Source: Crateriforma conspicua
GTDB lineage: Bacteria > Planctomycetota > Planctomycetia > Pirellulales > Pirellulaceae
Direction: 5' to 3'
DNA length: 64,000 nucleotides
NCBI RefSeq assembly: GCF_007752935.1
Contig: NZ_CP036319.1
Span: forward strand, 6,552,501 to 6,616,500
The notes under the pieces were generated by a model that was not told where the DNA came from, made no database searches, and was given only the letters and a program-made list of their open reading frames with translations. Every line of letters starts with the position of its first letter. Positions within the stretch are counted from its first letter, which is position 1. This document shows positions 1 to 19,080 of the stretch, in pieces. The position numbers and the translations under genes are program-made.

Positions 1-1536
1 GCTGTGCGATTCCAGCAACCGGGCGAACTGCACCAAAGCATCGTCGCCGGCCGGGTGACCGTGCACGTCGTTGACTTGTTTGAAATGGTCGATGTCGCAA
101 ATGACCAAGCTGAACGTTGCTTCCCCGGATTTAGCCGACTCGGTCAGTTCCAACAATTGCCGATCGAATTCGGCACGGTTGGCCACTCCGGTCAACGGAT
201 CACGGGTGACCTTGTTGTTCAGTTTTTCCAGACGCTGTTCCAGGTCGGCTTTGTCCGACAAGTCGTGAAGGATGACCACGACGCCCTGCAATCCAGGCTC
301 GCTGCCCATCACAGGCGAAACTTGAATGTGCACCGGCAACGGATCTTTGCCCGGACGCTCGATCATCATCTTCTTGGAAACCTGGGCTCCGCCGCCCAGA
401 CAATCCGTCACGGGGCATCCCGATCGCGTGCCATCGGTGTCCCGCAAACGCAGGGTTTCGTCCTTCCAACGCTGGCCAATGATCGCGTCGGCGGCGATGC
501 CCGTCATGCGAGTCATCGCGTGATTCCAGCGTTCGACCGTGCCTTCGCCGTCGGCGAACACCATTCCCTCGGTCATGTGATCCGACAGACGTTCCAGGAA
601 GAACTCGTCGCGACGCTTGACGTACTTGCGGGTGGACTGCGTATTGACCTGCAACGCTGCGGCGTCGCCGCCGATCATCGGACGATCCACATCTTGGCCC
701 AGCTTCTGCAGCCAGCGATTGACGACGGCTCCCTGCAGCAACTCGGGACGCTGTTCCAGCATCACGCCGAAATCCAAACTCAGTTCCGGATCGAATTGCG
801 TGCCGCTGCCGCGGATCAGTTCGCTGATCGCACGTTCACGGCTGAGCGCCGGCCGATAAACCTGGTCGGTCGTCATCGCGTCAAAAGCGCTGGCGATCGA
901 CAGCATTCGCGATCCCAGCGGCAACGCGTCGCCACGCATCGATTCGTCCTGGCGGCGACTGTCGTACCAAGTGTCCGCGTAGCGGATGATGTCCAACAAT
1001 TCCGTATCCGCGGTGCACCCACGCAAGATTTCGCAGGCGATTTGCGGACAAGTGCCCATCGCCAACTGTTCGTCGACCGAAAGCTTTCCAGGCTTACGCA
1101 GGATCCGATCGGGGATCCCGATTTTGCCCAAATCGTGAAGCAGCGCGGCGACTTCGATCCGATCGCGTGCCTCGTCATTGAATCCCAGACGCTGGGCCCA
1201 GGCCGAACACGCCAAAGCGACACGCAAGCAGTGTGCGGCCGTCGGCGCATGCTTCGTGCGCAAGGCGTAATACAGCGATGTCGCCATGCCCAGACGAACC
1301 ATCGCCAAATGGTTTTCGAATTTGGCTTCCTGCGCCGCGGTCCCCGAATCGGCCGGTGCTAAGGCGTTTTCGCGCAGTCCCGCCAGCAGATCACCGACGC
1401 GTGAATCCGGCGGAATTTCCGTCGGTGCGACCGGCCGATTCGTTGGACCGGACGCGGCGGGCGAAGCGGCCACCACGGGTGCAAATGCGGGGTTCGCCGA
1501 AGATTCCAGAGGGCACGATGGATTCAGGTCGGACAT
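1..1536 (-). CDS. HD-GYP-like / PAS / GGDEF signalling protein (3' end cut by window edge)
   Basis: The frame reads from ATG at 1536 to base 1 without a stop, giving 512 residues of a longer protein. After a Pro/Ala-rich leader of about 45 residues comes an HD-type phosphohydrolase-like domain (about 75-260) with the motif HDLGKIGIPD at 134-143. A PAS-like domain follows (about 310-430, containing GMVFADGEGTVERWN), then the start of a GGDEF domain (RDPLTGVANRAEFD, later DIDHFKQVNDVHGH). The usual HHE and GYP signatures of HD-GYP phosphodiesterases are missing: the matching stretch reads IIRYADTWYDSRR. The GGDEF catalytic motif itself lies outside the window. The protein probably makes or senses cyclic di-GMP in the cytoplasm. 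It is divergent from the sigma factor gene. Confidence 0.85.
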   Translation of the reverse strand, partial: MSDLNPSCPLESSANPAFAPVVAASPAASGPTNRPVAPTEIPPDSRVGDLLAGLRENALAPADSGTAAQEAKFENHLAMVRLGMATSLYYALRTKHAPTAAHCLRVALACSAWAQRLGFNDEARDRIEVAALLHDLGKIGIPDRILRKPGKLSVDEQLAMGTCPQIACEILRGCTADTELLDIIRYADTWYDSRRQDESMRGDALPLGSRMLSIASAFDAMTTDQVYRPALSRERAISELIRGSGTQFDPELSLDFGVMLEQRPELLQGAVVNRWLQKLGQDVDRPMIGGDAAALQVNTQSTRKYVKRRDEFFLERLSDHMTEGMVFADGEGTVERWNHAMTRMTGIAADAIIGQRWKDETLRLRDTDGTRSGCPVTDCLGGGAQVSKKMMIERPGKDPLPVHIQVSPVMGSEPGLQGVVVILHDLSDKADLEQRLEKLNNKVTRDPLTGVANRAEFDRQLLELTESAKSGEATFSLVICDIDHFKQVNDVHGHPAGDDALVQFARLLESHS

Positions 1537-2007
1537 GGGGGTTGGTCGGTCAAGTTGTGAGCGTAGGTCCGTCGATCGCGGGCGCCGCTGTTGGACATTC
1601 GGCCCTCCCGCTGAATGAAACCTAGGTCAGAATGCCCCCCAAAAAGCCCGCATCCGGACGTTTTGCCGAAATCTGTCACCTCCAGCTGACGTTGTCGTCG
1701 CAAAACCCCTCCACAAGACCAAAAACGCTCAAACACCGCCCTTTCGGCAGGCACAAAGCCACGGCAACGTATACAAATCACCACACCAATTTCGCACCGC
1801 CGCCCGATCGGGCGGGATCGGGTGGTGATGAAAAAAGGACGGGCAAGCCGCGGGCGATCGCTGCGATTTCTGCGGCGAGGCGACTATCATTGTTATTGGC
1901 GTCCCGGCGCCGCACCGTCGCCGGTGTCCCGCCATCGCCACGCGCCTCCAAAATCATCCCTGCGACGACGACGGATCGAAGCGTCTTCTCTTCAAAGTTA
2001 CCGCCCC
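1537..2007. other. Divergent intergenic region upstream of sigma factor
   Basis: These 471 bases separate the GGDEF-type gene (leftward) from the sigma factor (rightward). The sigma frame stays open upstream to an ATG at 1822, but that 62-residue extension is Arg/Pro/Ser-rich and unlike sigma region 2, so I treat it as non-coding. I see no RNA gene or convincing promoter hexamers. Confidence 0.4.
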
Positions 2008-2598
2008 GTGAGTCTTTCCGAAGTCGATTTTCGTCTGCTCGAACGCTGCCTGGCCGGTGCGCCGCAAGCCTGGGACAAGTTCGTCGACCGGTTCCTGGGT
2101 TTGGTCATTCACGTCGCCCATCACACGGCGCAGTCGCGTGGGCTGACGCTGGATCGCGAAACGGAAAAGGACTTGGTCGGGGAAGTCTTCGTCGTCCTGC
2201 TGCAGAACGATCGCGCGGTGCTGCGTCGCTTTCGGCGGAATTGTTCTCTGGCGACTTATTTGGCCGTGATCGCGCGCCGGGTGATCGTCCGCCGTCTGGT
2301 GTCGCTTCAAAAGCAACCGCCGTCGGTCGCCGGCGATCAGTTGGATCGGCAAGCCGCCGCCGACACTTCGATCGAACGGGTGATCGACCGCGACCGGGTG
2401 GAACAAATGATTTTGCGTTTGGACCCCCGCGAAGCCGACGCGGTGCGGATGTATCACTTGGAAGGCAAGTCGTACCGCGAAATCGGCCAGACGGTCGGCA
2501 TGTCGGAAAACAGCATCGGATCGCTGCTCAGTCGCGCCCGTCAAAAGCTACGCGACGATTCGAACCGGCGAGACCGAACGGCCACCGAATCGGGCTGA
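2008..2598 (+). CDS. ECF-like RNA polymerase sigma factor
   Basis: A 196-residue sigma-70 family factor with two domains. Region 2 spans about residues 15-100 (DLVGEVFVVLL, then SLATYLAVIARRVIVRRL). Region 4 spans about 135-188, with the helix-turn-helix READAVRMYHLEGKSYREIGQTVGMSENSI. I chose the GTG at 2008 because family similarity begins right after it, while an in-frame ATG at 1822 adds 62 low-complexity basic residues. No anti-sigma gene is adjacent. It lies 108 bp upstream of guaA on the same strand, but guaA has its own promoter-like hexamers, so co-transcription is not certain. Target genes cannot be read from the sequence. Confidence 0.85.
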   Translation: MSLSEVDFRLLERCLAGAPQAWDKFVDRFLGLVIHVAHHTAQSRGLTLDRETEKDLVGEVFVVLLQNDRAVLRRFRRNCSLATYLAVIARRVIVRRLVSLQKQPPSVAGDQLDRQAAADTSIERVIDRDRVEQMILRLDPREADAVRMYHLEGKSYREIGQTVGMSENSIGSLLSRARQKLRDDSNRRDRTATESG

Positions 2599-2637
2599 TC
2601 ATCCGAACGTTTGCCGCATGCCGCGTGATGTTGCCCC

Positions 2638-2666
2638 TTGGGACATCGCGCGTCGTTTCCTAGAAT
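2638..2666 (+). promoter_or_regulatory. Putative sigma-70-type promoter for guaA
   Basis: TTGGGA at 2638-2643 and TAGAAT at 2661-2666 are separated by exactly 17 bases. They match the TTGACA/TATAAT consensus at 4/6 and 5/6 positions. The predicted transcript would start near 2673, leaving a leader of about 35 bases before the guaA ATG. This is a match by eye only, and planctomycete promoters are poorly characterised. Confidence 0.45.
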
Positions 2667-2706
2667 CCCGGATTAGCCAGAGTGCCAAGTCACGGGATAT
2701 ACGGGC

Positions 2707-4302
2707 ATGAGTTCGACAGAAACCCGGCCGTCGTCAGCGGACGTTTCGGTCGCCGGAGAATTAACCGATCAGCGGATCTTGGTGCTGGATTTTGGATCCC
2801 AGTATGCCCAACTGATCGCGCGTCGCGTCCGCGAACAAAACGTTTACTGCCAGATCGTTCGCCACGATTTGACGGCCCAGCGAATCGCCGCCCTTCGCCC
2901 CAAAGGCATCATTTTGTCGGGCGGTCCGTCGAGTGTTTACCAAGACGGCGCCCCGCAATGTGATCCGGCGTTGTTCGACTTGGGCATCCCGGTGCTTGGC
3001 ATTTGTTACGGGATGCAATTGGCGTGTGCCGCACTGGGCGGCAAGGTCGACCACACGCCCAGCCGCGAATACGGCCGGGCGTCCTGCAACGTGCAGGTGT
3101 CGGATGGTCTGTTCGCCGGACTGCCCGAATCGATCGAAGTTTGGATGAGCCATGGCGATCAAGTCAGCGCGATCGCCGACGAATTCGAAACATTGGCGGC
3201 CACCTCGACCTGCCCGTTCGCCGCCATCCGTCACCGCAGCCGTCCGATCTTCGGCATGCAGTTTCACCCCGAAGTCACCCACACACCGCTGGGCAGCCAG
3301 ATCTTGCGGAACTTTGTCCGCGGCGTCTGCGGTTGCGAAGATTCGTGGCGTTTGTCCGACTTTGCCGACGAAGCGATCCAGCGGATCCGTGGAATTGTTG
3401 GCGATCGACGTGTGATTTGTGGGCTCAGCGGCGGCGTCGATTCCTCCGTCGTCGCGGCGCTCTTGTATCGTGCCATCGGCGATCAGTTGTCGTGCATCTT
3501 GATCGACAACGGATTGCTGCGGAAAAACGAACAGTCATTGGTGATCGACGAATTTTCCAATCACTTCCAAACCGACCTGCATGTGGTCGACGCCGAAGAT
3601 CGATTCCTGGCCGACTTGGCCGGCATCACCGAACCCCAAGAAAAACGTCGACGCATCGGCCACGCGTTCATTGAATGCTTCAAGGACGAAGCCGAAAAGA
3701 TTGAAAACGCCCACTTCCTGGCCCAGGGAACGCTGTACCCCGATGTCATTGAAAGTGGTGCCGACCCCGATGGTCCGGCGGCCACCATCAAACTGCATCA
3801 TAACGTCGGCGGTTTGCCGGACGAACTGGGATTCGAACTGATCGAACCGCTGCGTGACTTGTTCAAAGACGAAGTCAGGCGTCTGGGCTTGGAACTGGGG
3901 TTGCCCGAATCCTTGGTATGGCGACACCCTTTCCCCGGCCCCGGATTGGCTGTCCGTTGCCTGGGCGAAGTCACCCGAGACAAATTGGCGATCCTGCGGG
4001 AAGCCGATGCCATCGTCGTCCAGGAAATCCAAGACGCCGGGCTGTACCGAGAAACCAGCCAAGCGTTCGCCGTTCTGTTGCCCGTGCAAAGCGTCGGTGT
4101 GATGGGCGATGCCCGAACCTACGACCGCGCCGTCGCGGTGCGATGCGTCAACACGGACGATTTCATGACGGCCGACTGGAGCCACCTGCCGTACGATTTG
4201 CTGGCCAAGATCAGCACGCGAATCATCAACGAAGTCAAAGGCATCAATCGCGTTTGCTACGACATCAGCAGCAAGCCGCCGGCGACCATCGAATGGGAAT
4301 GA
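2707..4302 (+). CDS. guaA: GMP synthase (glutamine-hydrolysing)
   Basis: Converts XMP to GMP using ATP and glutamine, the last step of de novo GMP synthesis in the cytoplasm. The 531 residues match the usual bacterial length of about 525. The N-terminal class I glutamine amidotransferase domain shows nucleophile Cys100 in GICYGMQ and the partners His187 and Glu189 in QFHPEV. The ATP pyrophosphatase P-loop SGGVDSS lies at 241-247. The C-terminal dimerisation domain ends in the family-typical PPATIEWE. The ATG at 2707 fits the family start after a short Ser/Thr-rich extension. No weak catalytic site is seen. Confidence 0.98.
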
Positions 4303-4449
4303 TCACCGGCGCATCGCGGCGATCAACCTATCCAGGCAACCCCAACCGTTGATTCAAACGATCCAACGTCCGTGACCAAACCGATGTCACGTGTTTCATC
4401 CGATTCACCACTTTATTGTCGCTAGTAGCTCATCGCTTACAGCTTCCTT

Positions 4450-6129
4450 ATGGGTACACAGTTCATTTATCAGATCGAAGGTCTGACCAAAAAGCATGGC
4501 CAGCGAACCGTTCTGGACGACGTCCATTTGGCGTTCTATCCGGGTGCCAAGATCGGCGTCTTGGGTCCAAACGGCGCCGGTAAGTCAACGCTGTTGCGGA
4601 TCATGGCCGGCCAAGACAACGAATTCGATGGCACCGCGCGGTTGGGCAAAGGTTTCACCGCGGGCTATCTGCCGCAAGAACCACCGCTGAATCCGGACAA
4701 GAACGTCTTTGAAAACGTTCAAGAAGCGGTCGCCGAACGCCAGGCCATCTTGGATCGCTACAACGAAATCGGCGGTTTGCTGGGCGAAGTCACCGACGAC
4801 GACCAGATGCAAAAACTGTGCGATGAAATGGCGGTGCTGCAAGACACCATCGACACGCACAACTTGTGGGAACTGGACCGCCAGGTCGAAGTCGCGATGG
4901 AGGTCATGAACCTGCCGCCCAGTGACGCTGACGTGACCAAGTTGTCGGGCGGCGAGAAACGCCGTGTTGCGATCTGCCAATTGCTGATCCGCCAGCCCGA
5001 TCTGTTGTTGCTGGACGAACCGACCAACCACCTGGACGCCGAATCGGTGTTCTGGCTGGAACAACACTTGGCGAAATACCCCGGAACCGTCGTCGCGGTG
5101 ACGCACGACCGGTACTTCTTGGATAACGTGGCCCAGTGGATTCTGGAAATCGACCGCGGCAAGGGGATCCCGTTCGAGGGCAACTACACCGCATGGTTGG
5201 AGAACCGTGCCAAGCGGATGGCCTTGGAAGAACGTCAACAGAAGGCGCGGGAAAAAACGCTGTCTCGCGAACTGGAATGGATTCGCATGAGTCCGAAGGC
5301 TCGCCAAGCCAAAAGCAAGGCGCGGATCAAGTCGTACGAACAAATGGCTGCCCAAGCGTTCGAGGACCGTCCCGACGAACTGGAGATCCAGATCCCCGCC
5401 AGCCGACCGCTGGGCGAAGTCGTCATTGAAGCCAACAACATCAGCAAGGCGTTCGGCGACAAGGTCTTGATCAAAGACCTTACGTTCCGCTTGCCCCCGG
5501 GTGGCATCGTCGGCGTCATCGGACCCAACGGGGCGGGCAAAACGACCCTATTTCGCATGTTGACCGGTCAGGACGAACCCGACGACGGGGCAATCCGCGT
5601 GGGCGAAACCGTCGACTTGGGCTACGTCGATCAATCCCGTGACGCATTGGATCCCGACAAAACGGTGTATCAGGAAATCAGCGGCGGTTATGACAGCCTG
5701 GAAATGGGCGGCCGCCACCTGAATTCCCGTGCCTACGTTTCGCGTTTCAATTTCAAGAAGGCCGACCAAGAGAAAAAGGTCGGCACCCTGTCCGGCGGGG
5801 AACGCAATCGTGTGCACTTAGCCTCGTTGCTGCGAAAAGGTTGCAACGTGCTGTTGTTGGACGAACCGACCAATGACCTGGACGTCGACACCCTACGCGC
5901 CTTGGAGGAAGCGATCGCCAGTTTCGCCGGTTGTGTGGTGGTCACCAGCCACGACCGCTGGTTCCTGGATCGGCTTGCCACGCATATCCTGTCATTTGAA
6001 GGCGATGGCAACGTGACTTGGTTCGAAGGGAATTTTGACGACTACGAACGTAACCTCCGCGAACGACTGGGATCGGTCAGCGAAGAAGAATTCCGCAAGT
6101 CTCGCTACAAGAGCATCCACGCGACCTAA
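4450..6129 (+). CDS. ettA: EttA-type ABC-F ATPase (translational throttle)
   Basis: A soluble ABC-F protein of 559 residues with two nucleotide-binding domains and no membrane segments. The first has Walker [10 protein letters not shown] at 39-47, signature LSGGEKRR at 165-172 and Walker [13 protein letters not shown] at 185-196. The second has GPNGAGKTT at 358-366, LSGGERNR at 447-454 and [11 protein letters not shown] at 468-478. Between them is a charged P-site-tRNA-interaction-type linker (about 255-300, rich in Arg/Lys/Glu). In the known family EttA binds the ribosomal E site and couples early elongation to the ATP/ADP ratio. The C-terminus ends in KSIHAT without the long coiled coil of Uup. 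It lies 147 bp after guaA. Confidence 0.93.
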
Positions 6130-6531
6130 CGAAGTCTTGCCACCGCTTCGGCGCGACGGCCTCCCGATCGGACGTCGCCCGATTCCTGGTAATCGTGGGC
6201 GTTCCCTCGTGTTGCCACCAATTCGTGTTCCCCCAACGTCGGCGTTTCCGTGGGCGGGGGGACCCGTGAAGGCCGTTGTGATTCGAATGCCCCCCTTCGC
6301 CAACCGAAGACCAAACGCGGCGATGGGGCGGATCCGATCGACCGCGTTGGCAAATTTGGGGGGCAAAGCAAGTCGCATGACGTCGGCTTTCCACGTCACG
6401 GTCGGCCTGATCAGCGAAACACCTCGCCGGTGGCCCGATACACCTGGCATTGGCCGCCTGGCAAAGTCCGCCCGTCTCCCTTCCTTTCCCCAACACCTTT
6501 TCCCTACCCCTATCAATAACCCAAAGAAGTC
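6130..6531. other. 402-base gap between ettA and the Lys-rich gene
   Basis: No gene is supported in either strand. Frames that cross this gap are Arg/Pro-rich shadows with no family signature. A purine-rich AAAGAAG just before the ATG at 6532 may be its ribosome binding site. I see no clear terminator for ettA. Confidence 0.4.
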
Positions 6532-6771
6532 ATGACGATTTTGCGAGTCGGCACTAACGAAAAGTACAGCGACGGCTGGGACGCGATCTTCGGTGGCCAA
6601 ACCGGCACCTCGTCCAAGTCGAGCAAGAAGAAGACCAAGACCACCAAGAAGGCCAAGGCCGCTAAACCGAAAGCCACCAAGGCCAAGGCCGCCAAGTCGC
6701 AACCCGCCAAAGCGTCGGCTAAGAAAAAGGCCGGGAAGAAGAAAGCCGGCAAGTCCAAGTCGTCTAAGTAA
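6532..6771 (+). CDS. Small lysine-rich, histone H1-like planctomycete protein
   Basis: A 79-residue protein in two parts. Residues 1-24 (starting MTILRVGTNEKYSDGWDAIFGG) look like a folded, conserved head. Residues 25-79 are almost wholly Lys, Ala, Ser and Thr, with repeated AKAAK/KKAGKK-like units resembling eukaryotic H1 tails and bacterial Hc1/AlgP-type tails. The sequence suggests binding to nucleic acid (DNA or rRNA), but nothing shows which. ATG at 6532 is preceded by AAAGAAG. It lies 124 bp upstream of the giant unknown protein on the same strand. I know no characterised function. Confidence 0.8.
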   Translation: MTILRVGTNEKYSDGWDAIFGGQTGTSSKSSKKKTKTTKKAKAAKPKATKAKAAKSQPAKASAKKKAGKKKAGKSKSSK

Positions 6772-6895
6772 GCGACGCCCGTGCACCCGGATACCACATC
6801 CGCATCGTCCCGCCCCGCCCCACGATCCCCTGCCCCCGTGGCTTGAATCTTGCCCCCAGCCACTAACCATCACCTCGGGTGATCCCCTTCGTCCC

Positions 6896-9800
6896 ATGTT
6901 GCTCCCCGCCGTACCGGAGAATCTTCGTGATCCGCTGCAGCGTCTTGCCGGGTACCTGAATTTTTCCTCGGGAAAGACAGACCTGGCAACGCTGGCCGCT
7001 TGGAACACGGTCTACGGTGAGGCGATCGGTGAGAACGCTTTGATCGGGATGCCCGGATGGCTGGTGCTTAAGGAATGGCTTCGCAACACGCTGCGGCAGC
7101 TGAAGAAGAACCAGGCCGCATTCGCCGATCACCAACAAGCCGACCGTGTCGTACGGTTGCTTTGGAGCGAATTGCTGCCGGCCTATTTGGATTTCCACAG
7201 CGACCTGCTCTTTCATCAAGAACCCGAAGACGTGTTCAACGGGTTCTTTCTGGCCAAGGCAGCTGAATCGATCCTGTGCCATTTGGATCGTGACAACGAT
7301 GCCGATGTGGTCACCGCATCGATCGATCGGCTGAACGACTATGTGGGTTATCGCCCGGTCGCCACGTTGGAAAACCGGCGCGGCGAACCGTACCCCCACG
7401 AATTCGTCCGCCCGATCCCGCTGTATCTGCGCGACGTCGGTGTTTCGGCTGGTCCGTACCAGGCGATCATCGAACTGACCCTGCAAACGCTACGGGATAC
7501 CGACGAATCAATTTGTCGCGCCGCGGGCATGGACCTGGATCGTTTGGATGAATTGGCATTCGATCCGCGAGCCTATGACTTTGATCATCCCGTCAATCGA
7601 CGCCCCAACTATCACTTCGGCGGTTGGGATGATCGCAGCGTCGGGGACGACGGATGCTTTCACCGTTTCGTGCTGCGGCAGGTCACACTCAATGCGTTGC
7701 TGGATCGGGTCAACGAGTCTTCGGAACTGAGTCGCGAGGAATTGCTGGTCGAATCGGCATCGGTGCTGGCCGGCACGATCCTGATGGCTTCCGGCATCAG
7801 CGGTTGGGGGCCGGCCGCTTACGGCAGCGAAATCACATTGGGATCGCTGATGAAGCCCATCGCGGGATATCGCGATGCGTTCTACAAGGATCGCTTGACC
7901 CAGATCGCCCCAGACCATGCCCAGCGGTTGGTGTCCGAACAACAAACGCATCACCAACCTTTCGGCGCCGCACGACAGTATTTGAATGCTTCGCTGGCCA
8001 AACGCCGCGCGATGCAGGTCCAGCATGCACAACTGGCACGTTTGTATGCCCGCATGGGATACCCCGACGCCGCCAAACGCCAATCCGATGTCGTGGCAGT
8101 TCCGTCGGCCCGGCTGCTGTCCAAGATTGATTGTGAGGTCACCGCGGGTTTGCGAGCCCTGCGTGCCGGTCGACTGTCGGTTGCGGTCGACGTTGTCGAT
8201 GACGCATTCCAACGTCTGCAGCGGGCCATTCAGTGCGGTGCCCTGATCGACCCATGGGACATTCTGGGTTTCGGTGGCAATTTTTCGCTGTACCCCGGCC
8301 CGGAAAACTCGGTCCACGACGGGCGGGTCGATGACATCCTGTATGTGATGGATCAGCTTTTCGGATACATCGCGCGTGTCTGGAGCGAAGCGGCGGCACG
8401 CGACGAAACCGAAGCCTACGATCATCTGGAAAAACTGTATCGACGGATCGCCGAATGGTGGCGTCAATTCGCCGCGCACACGATCGATTCGATCGAAGCG
8501 ACCGACCCGTTGGAATCGTACGAGTCGGCTAAGTTGGTTTCGCGTGCCTTGCGGCTTTGGCACCGCGGCGGTGCGGCGGCGGGTGATGTGAAATTTTGGG
8601 CGCCACACGCCGACCTGTTCGATTCACCGCGTGCTTACACGTTGGTCATCTCGGCGCTGTTAGAACGAATGGACTTTGTTCCCGCGATGGCGTTGCTGGT
8701 TCACTGGTTGGGTCGCGCCGACGAAATCGGTCTCTCTCAGGGCGGCAGTTCGCTTCCGCGGTTGTCCGAACGCTGGCTGCTTCGCGTCCGCGGTCAACAA
8801 ACGGCCACGACCGACGTCGATGGATCGGACACCGACACGGCGGAAGATTCGACACCGCCGGACTGGGCATTGGTTCGCAAACTGTTCGACTATTACGAAG
8901 CCAACGCGGAACAGTATTGGTCGGCGCCGGAATTCAACCTGGGCAGCAACGGCCACCGCAAATCCCGTGACTCGGTCGACTGGAATGCGGAACTGACCGC
9001 AGCCAACGAAGCGGACGGATGGGACGAAGACGACCAGGAAGAAAACCCGTACGCCGCAGCCTACGAGAACGTCACCTACGAAGATTCCACCGACGACGGC
9101 AATGAAGGCGCCGTCTTTGAGTTCGGCGAAGAAAACGGCAGTCAGACCGAACTGCAAAGCGAATCCAAACGGCTGACCGAACATTTGGCCTTCTTGCAAT
9201 CGCTGGCACGCATGTGGGCGCTGGCCGCCGACATGCTGATCAGCCGACGCGCCAACAAACCAGACGATGCACCTGAGGAAAGCCTGGACTACCTGACGTC
9301 CTGGGCCGACCGCGCAAGGGAAAACCGCATCGGATTACTGGAACTGTTGGATGACATTCGCAACTACAAAATCAAACCTGCCGGGACCGACAAAGAATCC
9401 ATGAAAGCGTATGACCGGACACGGTTGTTACGTGATTCTTTGATGGAACGAGTGATCGGCACGGCGGTCGAAATGAGTGACACACGTCGCTTGTTGTGCG
9501 CCGCAATTGACGCGATGTCGGGCAAACCGGACGGCGAGATCACCGATCGGTTTCCCGAGGATGATCCGCAAGCGGTCGCGCTATTTGCAGCACTGATTTC
9601 CGGAAACTCAGAAAACGCCAGGCTGTTGTTTCCTGAATTCCTGGATGTCATCCACAACAAAAGCCTGCTGTACATTCCGCTATCGCGTGGTGGTGATCCC
9701 GTCAAAATCTATGTCGCACGATTGCGGCAACGCGTCTTGCGGCACCTGGTCCATTGGCTGCCGCGACGCGGACTGATCATTGAAACGTGCCGCTTGATCG

Positions 9801-11017
9801 AAACGGCGCGGCTGATGGAACAGCATCACCCGATCGGCGTCGGCGCGGTCACAGAGTTTGACGGTTTGTTCGCCGACGGTTTTCGCGCGTTGGTTTCCAC
9901 CGTCGTGCATTCGGTACGTCAAGCTCACCAAACATCGTCATCGGAACGAACCGACGGCGATGACCAAGCGGTCAAGACGCGACGCGATTTAGCGATCGGA
10001 CAAGATCGCCGCCTGGCCGAACAGTTGATCCCAGCGCTGGAACGCTTGACCGAAATCATGCTGGGCAGTTGGCTGGAACACAGCAAGACGCTGCGACTGT
10101 CCCCGCTGGAAACCGTGACCGATCCCCGGAAATGGGATTCGCTGGTGTCGTTCATCGATCGATACGGCGATCCGTTGTTCACGCAAGTCTTTTTGCAACT
10201 GGGCAACATCCGCGCGGTGTTGCACCAGGGCGTTTCGTCGTGGTTGCAGCGTGCGATCAAGGAAGGCGACGATTCTCTGCAAGACACTCGGTTGTTCGAC
10301 GATCTGTTGTCTGGCCAAACCACCGTCGACGCGGCGTCGCGTGCGATCACGCTGGTCTACGAATCGGTGTTCGACCACCATGCCGAATACCTGGACTACA
10401 ACAGCACCACGACGCAAAGTGATCGCGGCGAACTGATTTACATGTTCTTGGATTTCTTGCGACTCCGGGCTCGCTACGAACGAATCGCGTGGAATTTGAA
10501 ACCCGTCATGTGGGCGCACGAGGTCTTGGTGCACGCGGGAATGGATCAGGCCGCCATGATCTGGCGACGATCGCTAAGCGAGCGGATCGGCAGCGAAGCC
10601 GAGGTCTACGTTCAAAAATTACAGAAGCTGCAAAAAGAATACGCGATGCGAATGCCGACGGTCGCCGACCGCATCAGCGAACGCTTCGCGCGTCCCATGA
10701 CGATCGACCGCATGCGTGCCTTGGTCGCACCATCGCTGGATGCCGCCGAAGATGACTCGTTGTGCGCCGAGTTCGAGTTGTTGGAAAAAGAAGCCGAACA
10801 ATTGGCCGAAACGCCCGCCGGCGTCGGCTTGGACACACCGGCATGGTTGACCGCATTGGAAAACGAAGTTGAAAAGCTAGCAAAACAAGCGGCGGCCAGT
10901 GAGATCGATCCGCAAGCATTGATGACGATCCGCTACGTTACCTTATCGTTGGACGAATTGAACAATCAGTTGGCCGTTGCCAGCACGCAAGGCCGGCGAT
11001 TGCCACACCGGCGATAG
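6896..11017 (+). CDS. Giant (1373 aa) protein of unknown function
   Basis: I do not recognise a characterised family. The frame is open back to 6593, but that part overlaps the Lys-rich gene and is Arg/Pro-rich, so I start at ATG 6896 (MLLPAVPENLRDPLQRLAGYLNF). The protein is mostly amphipathic helix with many Leu/Glu/Arg residues, no signal peptide and no clear membrane segments, so it is probably cytoplasmic. A very acidic, probably disordered stretch lies at about 695-750 (DGWDEDDQEENPY and following). A coiled-coil-like region lies near 1235-1340. Such features suggest a scaffold-type protein, but that is inference. Codon use matches its neighbours, so there is no sign of recent transfer. 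Confidence 0.85.
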   Translation: MLLPAVPENLRDPLQRLAGYLNFSSGKTDLATLAAWNTVYGEAIGENALIGMPGWLVLKEWLRNTLRQLKKNQAAFADHQQADRVVRLLWSELLPAYLDFHSDLLFHQEPEDVFNGFFLAKAAESILCHLDRDNDADVVTASIDRLNDYVGYRPVATLENRRGEPYPHEFVRPIPLYLRDVGVSAGPYQAIIELTLQTLRDTDESICRAAGMDLDRLDELAFDPRAYDFDHPVNRRPNYHFGGWDDRSVGDDGCFHRFVLRQVTLNALLDRVNESSELSREELLVESASVLAGTILMASGISGWGPAAYGSEITLGSLMKPIAGYRDAFYKDRLTQIAPDHAQRLVSEQQTHHQPFGAARQYLNASLAKRRAMQVQHAQLARLYARMGYPDAAKRQSDVVAVPSARLLSKIDCEVTAGLRALRAGRLSVAVDVVDDAFQRLQRAIQCGALIDPWDILGFGGNFSLYPGPENSVHDGRVDDILYVMDQLFGYIARVWSEAAARDETEAYDHLEKLYRRIAEWWRQFAAHTIDSIEATDPLESYESAKLVSRALRLWHRGGAAAGDVKFWAPHADLFDSPRAYTLVISALLERMDFVPAMALLVHWLGRADEIGLSQGGSSLPRLSERWLLRVRGQQTATTDVDGSDTDTAEDSTPPDWALVRKLFDYYEANAEQYWSAPEFNLGSNGHRKSRDSVDWNAELTAANEADGWDEDDQEENPYAAAYENVTYEDSTDDGNEGAVFEFGEENGSQTELQSESKRLTEHLAFLQSLARMWALAADMLISRRANKPDDAPEESLDYLTSWADRARENRIGLLELLDDIRNYKIKPAGTDKESMKAYDRTRLLRDSLMERVIGTAVEMSDTRRLLCAAIDAMSGKPDGEITDRFPEDDPQAVALFAALISGNSENARLLFPEFLDVIHNKSLLYIPLSRGGDPVKIYVARLRQRVLRHLVHWLPRRGLIIETCRLIETARLMEQHHPIGVGAVTEFDGLFADGFRALVSTVVHSVRQAHQTSSSERTDGDDQAVKTRRDLAIGQDRRLAEQLIPALERLTEIMLGSWLEHSKTLRLSPLETVTDPRKWDSLVSFIDRYGDPLFTQVFLQLGNIRAVLHQGVSSWLQRAIKEGDDSLQDTRLFDDLLSGQTTVDAASRAITLVYESVFDHHAEYLDYNSTTTQSDRGELIYMFLDFLRLRARYERIAWNLKPVMWAHEVLVHAGMDQAAMIWRRSLSERIGSEAEVYVQKLQKLQKEYAMRMPTVADRISERFARPMTIDRMRALVAPSLDAAEDDSLCAEFELLEKEAEQLAETPAGVGLDTPAWLTALENEVEKLAKQAAASEIDPQALMTIRYVTLSLDELNNQLAVASTQGRRLPHRR

Positions 11018-11088
11018 CACGCCGCTCCGGTGAATCATTCCGTTTGTTGCAGCAAAACTTGTCACCGAAACTTTGGTCGTCGGTCGTT

Positions 11089-11113
11089 TTGACGCCAAAC
11101 AAATCTTTACAAT
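11089..11113 (+). promoter_or_regulatory. Weak promoter-like hexamers before the sugar isomerase-like gene
   Basis: TTGACG at 11089-11094 and TACAAT at 11108-11113 both match consensus at five of six positions. Their spacing is only 13 bases, shorter than the usual 15-19, so this is a tentative call. A start near 11120 would place the palindrome at 11137-11156 inside the 5' leader. Confidence 0.25.
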
Positions 11114-11136
11114 GATCGCGACGACAGGCATACTCC

Positions 11137-11156
11137 TGCCGCTGACATCAGCGGCA
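11137..11156. repeat. 20-bp palindrome in leader of sugar isomerase-like gene
   Basis: TGCCGCTGA at 11137-11145 and its exact reverse complement TCAGCGGCA at 11148-11156 flank two bases (CA). As DNA it could be a dimeric repressor operator; as RNA it would form a tight 9-bp stem, although a loop this small would open the innermost pairs. It lies 87 bases before the ATG at 11243. No T-run follows, so it is not a simple terminator. Confidence 0.55.
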
Positions 11157-11242
11157 CGACGAACCAGGGACGCAACCGTAAACGGTCGCCACGCCCCGGA
11201 AAGAAACTCAGCTCGGACGACGGGAGATCGACACTCGCACGG

Positions 11243-12070
11243 ATGAACACGTTAGCGATCAATCAGCTTTCGACGCTTCGCTGGGACATGCAGGATGACG
11301 CCCTGGCGTATGCGAATCGAGGCTTCAGCGGCATCGGCATTTATCGTCCCAAGCTGGAGGACTTCGGCTTGGACCGGACGGTTGAACTATTGGCCGAATC
11401 GTCGCTGAGCGCCACGTCGCTCAGTTGGGCCGGCGGTTTTACCGGCAGTGATGGCCGTCGGTTTGACGAGGCCGTTGACGATGCCATGGTCGCCATTCGT
11501 GAAGCGGCGAACTTACGTGCCGGCACCCTGATCGTTCTCGCAGGCGGTCGCAACAATCACATCCGCAATCACGTGCGACGCACTTTGCTGGAAGCACTGC
11601 GACGCGTCAGTTGCGTGGCCGAAGAATTCGGCGTCACCCTGTCGTTGGAACCGATTCATCCCGGGTGCGGTTACGAATGGTCGTTCATCAACGACTTGGA
11701 ATCTTGCCTGGAAATCATCGACGCGGTGGGCAGCCCGAACCTGGGTGTGACGTTGGACACGTATCATGTCGGGATGGACGATGACATCGTCCGTTGGTTA
11801 CCGGACGTGATCCCGCACCTGCGTCTGGTGCAGCTTGGCGACGGTCATCATTGTCCGCTGGGCGAAATGAATCGTTGCTTGTTGGGCGAAGGCAACGTCC
11901 CGATCGCGACATTGTTGCAAACGCTGCGGATGCACAACTATCGCGGTCCGATCGAAGTCGAAGTCATCGGCGAAGACGTCGAAACGCTTCAGTACGATTG
12001 CATCTTGGATCACGCGAAAGGGTTCTTGGATCGCGTGTTGCCGGATGCCACCCGAGCGACGCTTTCCTAA
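11243..12070 (+). CDS. Sugar phosphate isomerase/epimerase-like TIM barrel protein
   Basis: 275 residues of the xylose isomerase-like / AP endonuclease 2 superfamily. Metal-ligand motifs of the family are visible: Glu in LSLEPIHPGCGY, Asp and His in GVTLDTYHVGMDD, His in LVQLGDGHHCPLG, and Glu near the end in GPIEVEVIGED. Known members isomerise or epimerise sugars and inositols using a divalent metal in the cytoplasm. The exact substrate cannot be told from the sequence. The gene stands alone between the giant protein and a convergent small secreted protein. ATG at 11243 follows a 225-base leader region with a palindrome. Confidence 0.85.
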   Translation: MNTLAINQLSTLRWDMQDDALAYANRGFSGIGIYRPKLEDFGLDRTVELLAESSLSATSLSWAGGFTGSDGRRFDEAVDDAMVAIREAANLRAGTLIVLAGGRNNHIRNHVRRTLLEALRRVSCVAEEFGVTLSLEPIHPGCGYEWSFINDLESCLEIIDAVGSPNLGVTLDTYHVGMDDDIVRWLPDVIPHLRLVQLGDGHHCPLGEMNRCLLGEGNVPIATLLQTLRMHNYRGPIEVEVIGEDVETLQYDCILDHAKGFLDRVLPDATRATLS

Positions 12071-12127
12071 CCGATTGGCACACGTCACCGATCGACGTTT
12101 CGCAGCGTTATCAGGTTGCAGGCAAGA

Positions 12128-12535
12128 TCAACGGCTTGCCGGCGTTTCGGGCCACAACGCTTTGCGTTGATCCTCGGGCAGCCAACGCCTGTTTTGTTTC
12201 TCCGGATCTTTCTGTGTCCACGTTTCGCGAAATTGGCTGGCTTCGACTCTTCGAATGCTGCCGTTTTCACGCCACGACGCAAAATAGCCTCGCGGATTCC
12301 ACGAACGTTTGGGCAGATGATCGGCTGACTTGATCAATCGCCATGAACGCACCAAGAAACGGTTCTGTTGATCGGACCAATCGTAGAAGATCAGTTGCCG
12401 AAAGACTTCGCGGCCTTCTTCGTCCACGAAATGATTCAGTTCAATCAAGTCGACGCGGGCCACTTGGCGGTGAGCCGAAGAAGCTGATTGCAGACCGGCT
12501 GCGGCGATCAAATAGACCGTAAAGATCGATGACAT
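12128..12535 (-). CDS. Small secreted planctomycete protein of unknown function
   Basis: 135 residues. The frame is open upstream to 12667, but the ATG at 12535 is preceded by a good ribosome binding site (GGGAGG, 8 bases away on the coding strand) and begins a signal peptide (MSSIFTVYLIAAAGLQSASSA). The mature part contains RVDLIELNHFVDEEGREVFRQ, IFYDW and FRETWTQKDPE, a pattern I associate with conserved planctomycete hypotheticals, from memory only. It is rich in Trp and charged residues and has no Cys. It converges on the sugar isomerase-like gene. Function unknown. Confidence 0.8.
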   Translation of the reverse strand: MSSIFTVYLIAAAGLQSASSAHRQVARVDLIELNHFVDEEGREVFRQLIFYDWSDQQNRFLVRSWRLIKSADHLPKRSWNPRGYFASWRENGSIRRVEASQFRETWTQKDPEKQNRRWLPEDQRKALWPETPASR

Positions 12536-13054
12536 GTTTTTGCCTCCCAACGTGTCAGGGGAAGGCCATCGCCCGGCAACCACTGGCGGTCGGCCGGTGC
12601 CCGGTGCCGCGTTCCAAATCAAGGAAACGCCGACGTTCCGCACGGCCCATCGGTGCGGAGATACCAAAGATAATTACCGGACGTAAATAGCGTGAATTCC
12701 GCATGGCCCCCGTGGCGACGCCAATGCGCGTTGAGGCGGAAATGGGGTCCCTTGTTTTTTTCACGTCCCGTTTTTTTGTCGAACTAGAATGCCTCGTGGT
12801 CGCTTCGACGACGGCGGTCGGGCGGTGACACCCGATATCGCCAGAAGCGCCGACCGGTGTAAATTGGTGGTCGCGGCTTTGATTGCCGGACTCCACGCAC
12901 CGTGACAGTGTTTGGTGTTGATCGCGAACTTGTCTCAGACGACACCTTTTCCAGCCCGAGTGGCGGATGCCCAGACGGCCGCGATCGACTGGCCCAAACA
13001 CTGTCTCCCCACTTTTCCTATTCTTTCTCGATCGAAATCCCAGGATGCATCGCG
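12536..13054. other. 519-base divergent intergenic region
   Basis: It separates two divergent small genes. It holds two T-runs (around 12752-12762 and 12771-12777) and a TAGAAT at 12785-12790 that could be a -10 element for the rightward gene, but no fitting -35 element is seen. A frame across the region on the minus strand looks random. No RNA gene is recognised. Confidence 0.4.
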
Positions 13055-13282
13055 ATGCAATTCATCGAGCTGACCGGCAAGACGCTGCTTGACGTTGTGA
13101 ACGAAGGCGAAATCGACTTCAAGGAGTTGCATCAAGCCGGCGTGACCGGTGATTCCATCGTCCGCATCAACAAATACGGCGAAATCGAATTGCGTCGCGC
13201 CGATGGCTGGGTCTTGGTGGGCGGATTGCTGGGAAATTTCGAAGAACGTTTGCGACGTCTGACCGGTCTGGATTGGGCCTGA
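13055..13282 (+). CDS. 75-aa conserved-type hypothetical protein
   Basis: A compact 75-residue protein starting MQFIELTGKTLLDVVNEGEIDFKELHQAGV. The open frame extends back to 12902, but that part is Ser/Pro/Arg-rich and unlike a protein, so ATG 13055 is preferred. It is acidic with alternating hydrophobic residues, and its ILV-rich strands (DSIVRINKYGEIELRRADGWVLVGG) suggest a small beta-rich domain. No signal peptide, Cys or membrane segment is present. The C-terminus RLRRLTGLDWA is short and sharp. It converges with mfnB. I do not know its function. Confidence 0.75.
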   Translation: MQFIELTGKTLLDVVNEGEIDFKELHQAGVTGDSIVRINKYGEIELRRADGWVLVGGLLGNFEERLRRLTGLDWA

Positions 13283-13310
13283 CATCGCGCCCTTTTTCAT
13301 AGGTCTTGTT

Positions 13311-14090
13311 TCACGGATTTTCGTTCCGACACAACGCGACCTGACGACGCCAACGATCCACACGTTGGCGATCGATGGGGCGAACTCGGTTGCCCCCGCA
13401 CACATCACCACGCACGCCAAAACCGTCAGGCAAACAATCATGCCTGGCGAATCCCATCACATCGGTCAGCTTCAGACGCCCGGCGGCCATCCAGCGGATA
13501 CCCGCCTGACGCGAACGCTGGTGCAAACGGGCCATGCCGTGCCACCCCAACAACTGGATGGATGACGCGGACGTTTTATCGAAAGTGTCGACCAAAAACC
13601 GAGTCATCCCCGCGTGCAGCGCCGCCATCAGCACCTGGTCCCAGGGAAGACATCTCGCGGCTTGGTGATCCGCATACGCAACCGCAACCAGTTGCGTGTG
13701 TGGCGAAAGATCGTTCCGAATCTGGTCCCAAAGCCGGATCAATTCGGCTCGAGAACCGCAACCCGATGGGCCAACCTTGGCGTAGGCGAACTCGGACGGG
13801 ACCGACGCCGCCACGTCACGTGCCTGGTCCGTTTCTCCTAGGGCGGCGGACAATCGCGGAACGTTGGACGATCCTGCGTGGGTGCCTGTCCCCATTTGAC
13901 ACGCAGCCCTTTGCCACAGGGTCGGCGATACTGGTGCCAATGGACCGCGTGAAGGCGATTTGAAGTCCAATAGATCCACGTTAGCATCGATCGCCGCAAT
14001 CGCTTCTGGCCAATCTTGCACGCTGACCAACAATTGAGGGACGTTATTGCCGCCTGCGTCGTCGACCTCACCGGTCGCCGATTGCATCAT
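13311..14090 (-). CDS. mfnB: (5-formylfuran-3-yl)methyl phosphate synthase-like (MfnB, DUF556)
   Basis: MfnB joins two glyceraldehyde-3-phosphate molecules into the furan precursor of methanofuran, the formyl carrier of archaeal and H4MPT-linked C1 metabolism. Counting from ATG 14090, the N-terminal strand LLVSV is followed by LLDFKSPSRGPLAPV with Asp42 and Lys44, the Schiff-base-type Lys of the family. A second Lys lies in FAYAKVGPSG, and the late barrel strand reads LVDTFDKTSASS. The C-terminal end has the family-like GVRGDVCGG. The open frame reaches 14198, but that part is Arg/Ser-rich; ATG at 14090 or 14087 is likely. It is divergent from RNase D. The organism probably uses H4MPT/methanofuran C1 transfer. 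Confidence 0.85.
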   Translation of the reverse strand: MMQSATGEVDDAGGNNVPQLLVSVQDWPEAIAAIDANVDLLDFKSPSRGPLAPVSPTLWQRAACQMGTGTHAGSSNVPRLSAALGETDQARDVAASVPSEFAYAKVGPSGCGSRAELIRLWDQIRNDLSPHTQLVAVAYADHQAARCLPWDQVLMAALHAGMTRFLVDTFDKTSASSIQLLGWHGMARLHQRSRQAGIRWMAAGRLKLTDVMGFARHDCLPDGFGVRGDVCGGNRVRPIDRQRVDRWRRQVALCRNENP

Positions 14091-14299
14091 CGCAGCGGTC
14101 GTGCGTCGAGTGTTACCGAGCCCGCAGGGGCTGTGCCTGGAAACACCGTACCGGGCGACACTGCACCGGATCACACTAGGCCTGGGTTCGCGGATCAACT
14201 TCGATTCCGTGGTGCGGGGTTGTCGGATAGGCCATCGGCTCCGCGTGCACTACATTCATCGCATCCAGCCGACCACGTTTTCAAACGCCATCGTCGACC

Positions 14300-15481
14300 T
14301 TGCAATACCAAGCCATCAAGACCCCCGAACAGTTGAATCGCCTTTGCGATCAACTGGCCCAATGTGACGTCATCGGATTTGACACGGAATTCGTTTCCGA
14401 GGACAGCTATCGTCCGGAATTGTGTCTAATCCAAGTGGCTGCCGATGACGTTTTGGCTGTCATCGATCCCTACATGGCGGGTGACACCACACCGTTTTGG
14501 AATCTATTGGCCGAAGAAGGCCGCACGGTCCTGGCCCACGCGGCACGTGAAGAATCTCGTTTCTGTTTTCGTTTCTCCGGACGGCCGATCGCCGGCTTGT
14601 TCGACACGCAATTGTCCGCAGGTTTTGTCGGCATCGAATATCCGGCTTCCCTCGGGACTCTCGTTCAGCGGTTGTTGAACAAAAAGTTGCCCAAAGGGGA
14701 AACCCGGACTGATTGGCGTGAACGCCCGCTTTCCGACGCACAGTTGGATTACGCGTTGCAAGATGTCACTGACCTGCGTGCGTTGTACGACAAGATCCGT
14801 CGCAAGATCGACACGCTGGGTCGCCAAGCCTGGGTCGATGAAGAAACGCAGGTCTTTCAAGAAAAAATCATACGCGCCGAAACGCAGGAAAACTGGCGTC
14901 GCGTCAGCGGTTCGTCGGGCCTGCGTCCGCGACAACTGGAAATGGTGCGACAGCTGTGGCTGTGGCGCGAAAGCGTCGCTCAACAGTGGGATCGGATTCC
15001 CAAGCGTGTCTTGCGGGACGATCTGATCGTCGAACTCGCCCGTCGCGGCAGCACCGACCTACGACGCATCCGCAGCATTCGCGGCATGGAACGTCGCAAC
15101 CTTCAATCACAGTACGAAAACATCGCCGCGGCGATTCAAAAAGCGATCGACGTTCCCGACGAACAGTTGCCACAAAAGGCCAAGGGATCACGACGCGTCG
15201 TTTCACCGATGCTTAGCCAGTTCCTGTCGACGTCGATCGCCTGTATCAGTCGCCAACATCGTTTATCGCCATCGATCGTCGGCAATGCCGAAGACGTACG
15301 TGAATTGCTGGGCTATGAACTGGATCCCAAACCGGGCGACCCGACGCCGAGCCTGTTGAAAGGCTGGCGCGGTGAAATCGTCGGCAAATCATTCCGCCAG
15401 TTGCTGGCCGGTGAACTGGCGATTCGAGTCGCCGACGTCAAAGAAGCCCAGCCGTTGGAATTCATCTCGGTCGACCCTTAG
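14300..15481 (+). CDS. rnd: Ribonuclease D (DEDDy 3'-5' exonuclease with HRDC)
   Basis: 393 residues, similar to bacterial RNase D, which trims 3' ends of tRNA precursors and other small RNAs. Exo I shows Asp28 and Glu30 in GFDTEF. Exo III shows the Tyr and Asp of DYALQDVTDL. Exo II reads HAAREESRF, where E. coli RNase D has Asp two residues before a hydrophobic helix; Glu stands at the aligned site here. FDTQL and RTDWRERPLS are also family-like. An HRDC domain follows (about 210-285, RPRQLEMVRQLWLWRES). The best start is TTG at 14300, since no ATG fits the domain edge. Confidence 0.92.
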   Translation: MQYQAIKTPEQLNRLCDQLAQCDVIGFDTEFVSEDSYRPELCLIQVAADDVLAVIDPYMAGDTTPFWNLLAEEGRTVLAHAAREESRFCFRFSGRPIAGLFDTQLSAGFVGIEYPASLGTLVQRLLNKKLPKGETRTDWRERPLSDAQLDYALQDVTDLRALYDKIRRKIDTLGRQAWVDEETQVFQEKIIRAETQENWRRVSGSSGLRPRQLEMVRQLWLWRESVAQQWDRIPKRVLRDDLIVELARRGSTDLRRIRSIRGMERRNLQSQYENIAAAIQKAIDVPDEQLPQKAKGSRRVVSPMLSQFLSTSIACISRQHRLSPSIVGNAEDVRELLGYELDPKPGDPTPSLLKGWRGEIVGKSFRQLLAGELAIRVADVKEAQPLEFISVDP

Positions 15482-15569
15482 GCCGACCCGACGAATCGAT
15501 CGCCACACGCCCGGCCGGTCAATCCGACCGGGCAATCAACGCCGCCTGCGGGCCTTGCGGCCGGAACAA

Positions 15570-18500
15570 TCAGCGATTGCTGGCGTCCGTGCTGCGACGG
15601 CTGACGCGATCACTACGCGGGTTCATGTAGTGGGTCGCTTCTTCGGCCATCAGCGTGATGTCACCGCTGCGGATCTCAGTCCGGAATCGGTGATGACCAT
15701 CATTCTGGGCTCGTGCGACCACCTGCAGCCGGATTTCTTGCCCCGGAGCGATACGATCGATCGGGTCGAACAAGACCTGTCCGGTCAACACTTCGCCGGT
15801 TTGTCCCGTGATCCGGGTCGGTTCGATGCCGTGACTGAACTGGGCGATGGCACGCACTTGACGTGCTTCCTTGCTGCCGCGGTTGCGAACAACGATTTCG
15901 TACATCACGTCTTGGTCGACGGGTGCGGGCGCCGGCGGGTCGTTGATCGACAACACCAAGTCGGCGATGGCTTCGACTGCGGTTCCCAAGCTGACTTCCG
16001 CTTTGCCGGCGGCGGTACCGCGGCAATCGAACGCAAAGACTTGTTCGCCGGTCGTCGTCATCTGACAGCGGAAGTCATAGCTGCGTCCTGCCTTGGGCGA
16101 CAGCGAATCGATCTTCCATCGCAACTGACTGCCATTGACGCTGGCTCCGTCCAGCCCACCCAAGTACTTCACACCGGGCGGCAGAGTCAGCGTCGCTACG
16201 ACGTGCTTGCTGACGGCGGTGCCGACGTTTTGCAGGTCCAAGTGATAGGACGCTTCGCTGTTTTGGTACTTCAGTTCGGGACCGCTCAACACGGCTTCAA
16301 ACTTGGCGGCACTGACGCGGATGACTTTTTCCGCTTCGGCACGCAGTTCCAGATCGCCCGCGGCCAAACCGTGAATACGCAAGTCTTCCAAGTCCTGGGC
16401 CGTCAGTTCGACTTCGAACTGTGCTTCCTTGCCGGCCGGAATGTCACCGACCTTTTGCGATTGAGGCGTCGCGGAATTTGGTGACAGCGTGAACACGACG
16501 TTCGGGGCAACCCCATCGCCGGGGTTCAGCACGCGAACCTTGTAGGATTCCGATTCGCCGTAGACGACTTCGTCGGGACCGTCGATGAACAGAGCCAACT
16601 TCGGTTGCTGGACACGCACCTTGGCGACACTGCGCTGTGGCACCAGCGTCCAATCGACATCGACGTCGTACAAGCCGCTACGCATCGCTTTGAGCTGCAT
16701 GGTCAACGTTTCGCTGTGTCCGGCGGGCAAGCGATCGATCGTCCAAACCAAACGTTCGGCGGAATCCTCGGGGCCACTTTCCACGCTGCCGTCGGTCGTT
16801 TGCTGGCCTTTGACTTCGGCCCAGTCCGGGACCAACGCACGCACCAACAAGCCTTCGGCGTCAATGCTGCCGCGGTTTTCCACGCGGACGACATAGGGAC
16901 GAGTCTGGCGAATCATCATCTCCGCCGGGCCTTGCGTGATCACACGGATGGACGGCAATTCGGTTGCAACGGCTGTCTCGCCGGCGTTCAACTGGCGTGT
17001 CGACCGATCCGAGGTCGCCGGGATCGACATCGCGGGGATGCCGCCCTGGTTGACCTCGGTCACGGATGAACCGCTGGCCGACAACTGTTTTTCAGTCGTC
17101 GCCGGTTCGGATGCCGCGGTGGACGATGCAGCGTTCGCGGGCATCGACAGGGCGGCGGCATCGCGTTGGCCGTACGGATCGGTGGCCGCGAAATTGTCGG
17201 CACTGTTCGTCGATTCGGTTTTGGACAGGTTGCTAGCCGCGGGCGGCATCTGCAGCGCCGGTGGCGTGCTGACGGTGTCTTTGTTGGGATAACCGGCCAA
17301 TTGTCCGTTGGTGGTGGCGTTGCCGGTCGGCGCAGCGGGCGCGTCGCTGGGAGCCGGCGGAATCGCCAAGCTGGGCGACGGCTGGGATGCCGCGTAGGGC
17401 TGCGAAGTCGGTGGTTGCAGTGTCGTTGCCGATTCGGTCGCGGTTGCCGTGTCGGCCGGCGGCGTTAACGCAACATCTTGTTGCACCGGAGCGGCAGATG
17501 TCTTGGCGATGGTCGTGACTTCTGCCGAAGGCACCGGCTGTTTGGGCGTCGGTGCCGGCTTTGCTTCGGCTTTGGCGACAGTATTCTTCGACTGCGGTGT
17601 TTCGGCTTGGCGACGTGACGATCCGCTCGTCTGGGGCTTCGATTCTGCGACGTCGGCCGATGCCGGGGCGTTGGTCTTTGCCTGCGTCTTCGCCTTGGTT
17701 TCTTCGGTCGGCGTCAACTTTCGGCGAGCGACACGCGGCACCAAATCGTCGATGGAATCATCGCTTCGGATCTCGCGACGACGCTGCTGAATGCTTTCGA
17801 CGGCGGACAGCTTTTCCTCGGTCATATCACGGCTGGACAGACGCGACGACCGGCGACTGCTGGACTGATCCGACAGCGGGCTGGTCGAACGACTGACGAC
17901 GGCGGGTTGGTCGACCGTGGGGACGTCGATCGTGCTGGTGGTGCGACGACGAACGATGCGAGTGTCATCGGCGGGCGGCTTTGGAACGTTGGACAACTGC
18001 GGTTGCGGCGTCGTTGTCCGGGGTGCCGGTGCCGGACGCGGCATGGGCGCCGGTCGCGAGGTGTTCGCGGTCGCCGACGGATCCCGAATGGGCTGTGGCA
18101 CATTGCGGCTGTTGGACGATTGCACCTGGTGATAGGGAATGCCGTCCCAATCCGCCGGTTCGGGCGCCGGCACGCTGCCGGGATTGATCGGTGCCGCAGC
18201 GGTCCCGGCCGACGAAGATGACGACGATCGGCTGCCGAACAATCCGTCCAACAACCCGCGACCGCTGCTGCTGCTACTACTGCTGCTGGACGACGACGTC
18301 GTGCGTCCGCCGAAGATATTCAGGGCACGGCGCGGCTGGCTGCTGGGCTGCTTGCCGATCACCTGACGAATCATTGATCCGTCGTGTGCCGCATTGCCGC
18401 CGACAGCGTGTGTCACCGCTGGCTGTGCCTGCGTCGCCGATTGAGCCATCGCTGGAACGGCCAAAGTAAACACGCTGGCGGTGGCCAGCATGCCGTGCAT

Positions 18501-18575: not shown

Positions 18576-18735
18576 CCAAGCTATCGGCTGTTCAGCTTAT
18601 GACCTTTCAGCCAAATTGGTGGTTCGCAACAAAAATTCCAACCGCGTAAACTTTGACGACACCCAGCGCCGCCGCGCCGCAACGGTCGGCATGCGGCGGA
18701 TCAGCACCGAAATCCTTGACGACGGAACCGCCCCG

Positions 18736-19077
18736 ATGAATCGCAAAGAAAAGATCGAAGCCATGTTGGCGGAGGATCCCAAGGACGTTTTCTTGCGTTA
18801 CAGCTTGGCGATGGAATTGCGTCGCGAAGGCCGACACGAAGACAGCATCCGTGGTCTGCGTGAACTGTCGCGTGAAACACCGCCCTACGTTCCGGCATTC
18901 TTCATGGCCGCACAGCAATTGGCCGACCTGGGACGTATCGACGAAGCCCGCACGTTCTTGCGTGACGGGATCGACCAAGCACGGGCCCAGAATGACGCCC
19001 ATGCGGCGGCGGAAATGAGCGAGTTGCTGGCTTCGCTGGGCCGTTTGGGTGAATCCGACGAATCCGACGAGCTGTGA
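18736..19077 (+). CDS. Small TPR-like protein
   Basis: 113 residues from ATG 18736 (MNRKEKIEAMLAEDPKDVFLRYSLAMEL). The open frame extends back to 18517 through Arg-rich sequence overlapping the start of the divergent surface-protein gene, so the later ATG is better. Two to three TPR-like helical pairs are visible (AMELRREGRHEDSIRGLRELS; AQQLADLGRIDEARTFLRDGI), ending in an acidic tail ESDESDEL. No signal peptide, so probably a cytoplasmic partner-binding protein. It ends 3 bases before recO and is likely its operon leader. Partner unknown. Confidence 0.8.
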   Translation: MNRKEKIEAMLAEDPKDVFLRYSLAMELRREGRHEDSIRGLRELSRETPPYVPAFFMAAQQLADLGRIDEARTFLRDGIDQARAQNDAHAAAEMSELLASLGRLGESDESDEL

Positions 19078-19080
19078 AAC

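Follow-up and report, generated by a model that had tools for sequence, protein, structure and literature searches.

In the 64,000-nucleotide stretch of Crateriforma conspicua DNA analysed here (the window), a gene for a small, lysine-rich protein (MINI, 79 residues) stands directly ahead of a gene for a very large one (BIG, 1373 residues), and the locus raises the question of whether the two proteins work together and, if not, what each of them does. Both genes lie on the forward strand, with 124 bp between the stop codon of MINI and the ATG of BIG at 6896. MINI contains 24 lysines, carries a net charge of +22 and has a pI of 10.7; BIG has a pI of 5.07 and is most acidic in the block of residues 701-750 (net charge -17). 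The coordinates and the spacing given in a preliminary description of the locus, which placed a very acidic segment of BIG at about residues 695-750, were reproduced. That description went on to suggest that opposite charges might bring the two proteins together, and that a role in chromatin or on the ribosome was attractive.

MINI is a genuine gene, and its reading frame evolves under purifying selection: comparison with a genome of the same genus gave 15 synonymous and 3 nonsynonymous codon differences in that frame, and 1 synonymous and 17 nonsynonymous in each of the other two forward frames. The same count speaks against a longer, 1474-residue reading frame for BIG, listed mechanically from 6593, which overlaps the MINI tail out of frame; since it shows 17 nonsynonymous differences to 1 synonymous across MINI, the extension is not supported as coding sequence there, and the homology of BIG begins near residue 12-18 of the 1373-residue version (Table 1). 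An Rfam scan of positions 1-20000 returned no RNA family, and a promoter and terminator scan of 6000-7000 gave nothing useful. MINI, the 124-bp gap and BIG are 92-96% identical to the sister genome; the gap of roughly 400 bp between ettA and MINI (6130-6531) reaches 37% ungapped identity, an indel being the likely reason for this poor base-for-base match.

Table 1. Coordinates of the features of the locus, as positions in the window.
Feature	Position	Strand	Basis
guaA (GMP synthase), upstream of ettA	2707..4302	+	Pfam GATase and GMP_synt_C
ettA	4450..6129	+	NCBIfam PRK11819, 891 bits (cut-off 599); TIGR03719, 887 bits (cut-off 807)
MINI, 79-aa small basic protein, orphan family	6532..6771	+	Purifying selection in frame; profile matches 200/298 class genomes
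MINI head, residues 1-22, conserved module MTILRVGTNEKYSDGWDAIFGG	6532..6597	+	Alignment of 20 heads
MINI Lys/Ala/Ser/Thr-rich tail, residues 23-79, predicted disordered, putative nucleic-acid-binding	6598..6768	+	Composition, 60 members
BIG, 1373-aa all-helical orphan protein	6896..11017	+	40/40 relatives; 21/21 class genomes
BIG N-terminal helical half, about residues 1-640	6896..8815	+	AlphaFold
BIG acidic disordered linker, residues 690-755	8963..9160	+	Charge; pLDDT <50
BIG linker short motif YAAAYENVTYEDSTDDGNEG, residues 719-738	9050..9109	+	Conserved in almost all orthologues
BIG C-terminal helical half, about residues 747-1373	9134..11014	+	AlphaFold

Judged by sequence searches, MINI and BIG are two separate, uncharacterised orphan families found only in planctomycetes, and the statement that no known family explains either gene holds in that neither has a Pfam or NCBIfam match above cut-off. 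The consensus of the MINI family is a head, M[ST][IV]xRVG[ST]xxKYAxGWxxIFG, followed by a Lys/Ala tail. That the short head forms a conserved module is confirmed by an alignment of 20 heads, in which M1, G7, W16 and F20 are invariant and R5, V6, Y12 and G15 are present in at least 90%; in a few members that are more distant, F or Y replaces W. The head reads as a strand followed by a helix bearing the invariant W and F, and a PDB sequence search with it returned chance matches of 13-18 residues (best E 0.22). The tail ranges from 24 to 114 residues across 60 members, with a median net charge of +15 and a total of 1086 lysines against 55 arginines; a tail-only search of its own genome returned MINI alone, such low-complexity queries being insensitive. 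A single-sequence search matched 23 of 40 close relatives, and the head profile matched 200 of 298 sampled genomes of the class. An even draw of 294 genomes across the phylum included 21 class members, of which 18 carried MINI; three weak matches to partial heads outside the class (E 0.0015-0.0032) were counted as noise. All records returned in one scan of a named collection were titled as planctomycetes. Two groups of genomes, f18 and f112, which we guess to be Planctomycetaceae and Gemmataceae, have forms of their own: f18 genomes usually carry two paralogues (beginning MTGYTVHTGS and MSGPIVRTG), and the f112 form has extra residues after the first G. Downstream of the MTGYTVHTGS paralogue, on the same strand, several f18 genomes encode a small acidic protein family with the pattern ..EEISSDEVDRVV..LE.L...V.SE.IR....YYLVY. 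(L155:10482-10667, L161:9639-9857, L165:7823-8035), for which no Pfam match was found.

BIG is present in all 40 relatives; the same kind of even draw across the phylum showed it in every one of the 21 class genomes and in none of the other 273. Matches to HepT, CDT1_C, CcmI, DUF7342 and YggL fell below cut-off and were inconsistent between members, and a PDB sequence search with both halves gave nothing, or E 1.1. The protein was modelled by AlphaFold as two separate pieces, so that each model covers one half by itself: residues 1-700 have a mean pLDDT of 86.4 and a pTM of 0.80, and the C-terminal half 82.9 and 0.82. Both are almost entirely helical, as the preliminary description had anticipated, and are joined by a disordered linker with pLDDT below 50. 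A Foldseek search of the halves against the PDB gave no match below E 1e-3 (best E 0.014 and 0.0064). The weak top matches are solenoid-like, with query-normalised TM-scores of about 0.1-0.2 among the matches listed; BIG thus resembles the alpha-solenoid scaffolds (adaptin, armadillo, TPR) in being all-helical, but differs from them in that no repeat family (TPR, armadillo or HEAT) exceeds the Pfam cut-off. The linker (residues 690-755, net charge -20) holds a motif of approximately FxAAYEdVxYrDSTDDGxEG, with the core AAY.....DST.DG, in nearly every orthologue. Such conservation is unusual for a disordered stretch, and the motif, which is more than a run of acidic residues, has the look of an interaction motif or a self-ligand. 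Elsewhere in the protein, the blocks ELAxDPRAYDFDHPVN and EYxDYNSTTTQSDRGEL are near-invariant; these polar blocks exceed the needs of a plain scaffold, and BIG could therefore be an enzyme instead. BIG usually has neighbours other than MINI. The commonest, transcribed divergently, resembles a PQQ-repeat beta-propeller gene, and in some genomes purH-like and trpC-like genes come after it, all three labels coming from reading of the sequence and not from a family search.

The neighbours of MINI are of a different kind. In 22 of 40 regions (L111-L150), from several families, ettA precedes MINI on its strand at a distance of at most 3.5 kb and mostly of 30-250 bp, and guaA often stands ahead of ettA. 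From the other side, efp, two small families and proC converge on MINI in many regions. Over all MINI loci, in two locus sets that partly repeat the same genomes, ettA lay upstream in 47, proC was convergent in 35 and efp in 24. EttA was identified by NCBIfam, EF-P by its three Pfam domains, and proC was named by reading of its sequence. The two small families between efp and proC in the order of the window's genome, one of about 165 residues (LAWRETYFVLF..; for example L131:13147-13659) and one of about 80 (IDDKHVPLYRVxWVSDxPHFCG..; L114:9532-9783), have no Pfam match. In f18 and f112 the neighbours of MINI differ and are not translation genes, so that the link to ettA and efp can be called ancestral in the window's order alone. 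With the ribosomal-protein operon of that genome as reference, codon usage was scored with the help of simulations. MINI fits the ribosomal-protein set, in that 59% of the sequences simulated in ribosomal style score no higher than MINI does, and it departs from background genes, 0.2% of the sequences simulated in background style attaining its score; BIG scores as background; the result concerns one gene in one genome, with reference sets that are modestly separated. Since its codon usage is like that of the ribosomal-protein operon, high expression of MINI is suggested.

Whether MINI and BIG form a pair can be judged from how far their adjacency extends. They adjoin in the window's genome, in the sister genome, in 4 of those 40 regions and at 14 named loci, from Rhodopirellula, Neorhodopirellula, Rubripirellula, strain CA13 and metagenome-assembled genomes. 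On a tree of BIG these genomes form one clade (support 0.998), and the order ettA-MINI-BIG is limited to this Rhodopirellula/Rubripirellula clade. A functional pair, in which BIG would use its acidic linker to bind or shield the lysine tail of MINI, would account for two oppositely charged proteins encoded 124 bp apart on one strand, and for an order kept throughout a clade that comprises eight or more lineages on the tree of BIG. Across the wider group that carries both genes, however, the adjacency is not kept: on the next branch of the tree (genome G007) they lie 1.9 Mb apart, in other genera they are far apart or on different contigs, and there are genomes, such as G205, with BIG but with MINI undetected by the head profile. 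The linker is just as acidic in any of these settings, its net charge being -13 to -31 in all 38 orthologues compared (37 complete and one truncated, G205 included) whether MINI is adjacent, distant or undetected. Opposite charge is therefore not evidence of an interaction, and adjacency confined to one clade gives little reason to infer a pair. The evidence favours a single rearrangement as the origin of the neighbourhood; the two genes are likely chance neighbours, and a functional pair is very improbable.

For MINI taken by itself, the main competitor to a place on the ribosome is that of an H1-like nucleoid compactor, whose head would dimerise or anchor and whose Lys/Ala tail would neutralise and bridge DNA. 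The tail has the H1-like composition that this calls for (Lys, Ala, Pro, Ser and Thr), high-expression codons would suit an abundant nucleoid protein equally well, and condensed nucleoids are described in one report on Gemmata (PMC3440768). Like the chlamydial proteins of the Hc1/Hc2 type, the MINI tail is basic, Lys/Ala-rich, of low complexity and variable in length; unlike them, MINI has a conserved 20-residue head with its W and F and, in the window's order, translation genes and not DNA genes as neighbours, and it matches no H1-like or HU model in Pfam or NCBIfam. Nucleoid compaction is possible on this balance, though not favoured. A different idea, that MINI is a divergent copy of bS21 keeping only the N-terminal strand and helix, starts from a superficial resemblance by eye (L4, V6, E10 and the pattern at 12, 15 and 16 align without gaps) between two small, basic proteins. 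A profile comparison with hhalign gave no alignment (probability 0.1%, one column), the profiles being short; the MINI tail is based on Lys and not Arg, there is no Pfam match to bS21 (PF01165), and an ordinary bS21 is present in 40 of 40 relatives, which makes descent from bS21 highly improbable. The PVC signature protein (TIGR04137; CT421.2 of C. trachomatis, PMC3444138) is likewise short and group-restricted, with a conserved N-terminus followed by a lysine-rich stretch, and it occurs in the same genomes as MINI; it differs from MINI in sequence throughout and in having a separate locus in the same genome, and MINI gave no TIGR04137 match at E up to 10 (cut-off 50 bits). The true copy in the window's genome, at C1:1282211-1282360, is small and basic with a lysine-rich end, and its sequence is unrelated to that of MINI.

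The reading that we prefer, with a probability of about 0.5, is that MINI and BIG are independent families, that their genes became neighbours through a single rearrangement in the common ancestor of Rhodopirellula/Rubripirellula, and that MINI is a nucleic-acid or ribosome protein and BIG a helical scaffold. We infer that MINI is a lineage-specific nucleic-acid-binding protein, likelier on the ribosome than on chromatin. The head would attach MINI to a specific partner, and the lysine-rich tail would bind RNA or DNA irrespective of sequence. The partner would most likely be the ribosome, because ettA and efp, the ancestral neighbours of MINI in the order, both encode E-site factors; EF-P acts beside the ribosomal E site. 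EttA of E. coli binds to that site (PMC6723617). A role on the ribosome or on nucleic acid is plausible for MINI, and of the two places first suggested the neighbourhood favours the ribosome over chromatin to a moderate degree. Neighbouring genes need not cooperate, however, and ettA and MINI are here 403 bp apart; the lysine-rich, arginine-poor tail, moreover, bears as close a resemblance to H1-like DNA binders as to ribosomal proteins. Action of MINI on the ribosome, bound to nucleic acid through its tail, may be put at even odds. A narrower version is doubtful: here MINI would be specific to the class Planctomycetia, a ribosomal or E-site accessory protein that cooperates with EttA and EF-P and extends its lysine tail into rRNA. 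No papers on small lysine-rich proteins of planctomycetes or on an EttA partner were found in the open literature that was searched. BIG, for its part, would be core to the class, serving as an all-helical scaffold or interaction protein and displaying the conserved short motif of its disordered acidic linker to a partner.

Dropping the supposed pairing of MINI and BIG spares future work from testing the wrong interaction. Both proteins, matched by no curated protein model, are nevertheless conserved through a class with unusual cell biology. BIG occurs in every class genome sampled, and no solved structure is closely related to it; it is a clean marker of the class and probably has a core function in it. 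MINI, if it acts on the ribosome, would be a lineage-specific ribosomal component; if it acts on the nucleoid, it would be a candidate for how these cells condense their DNA.
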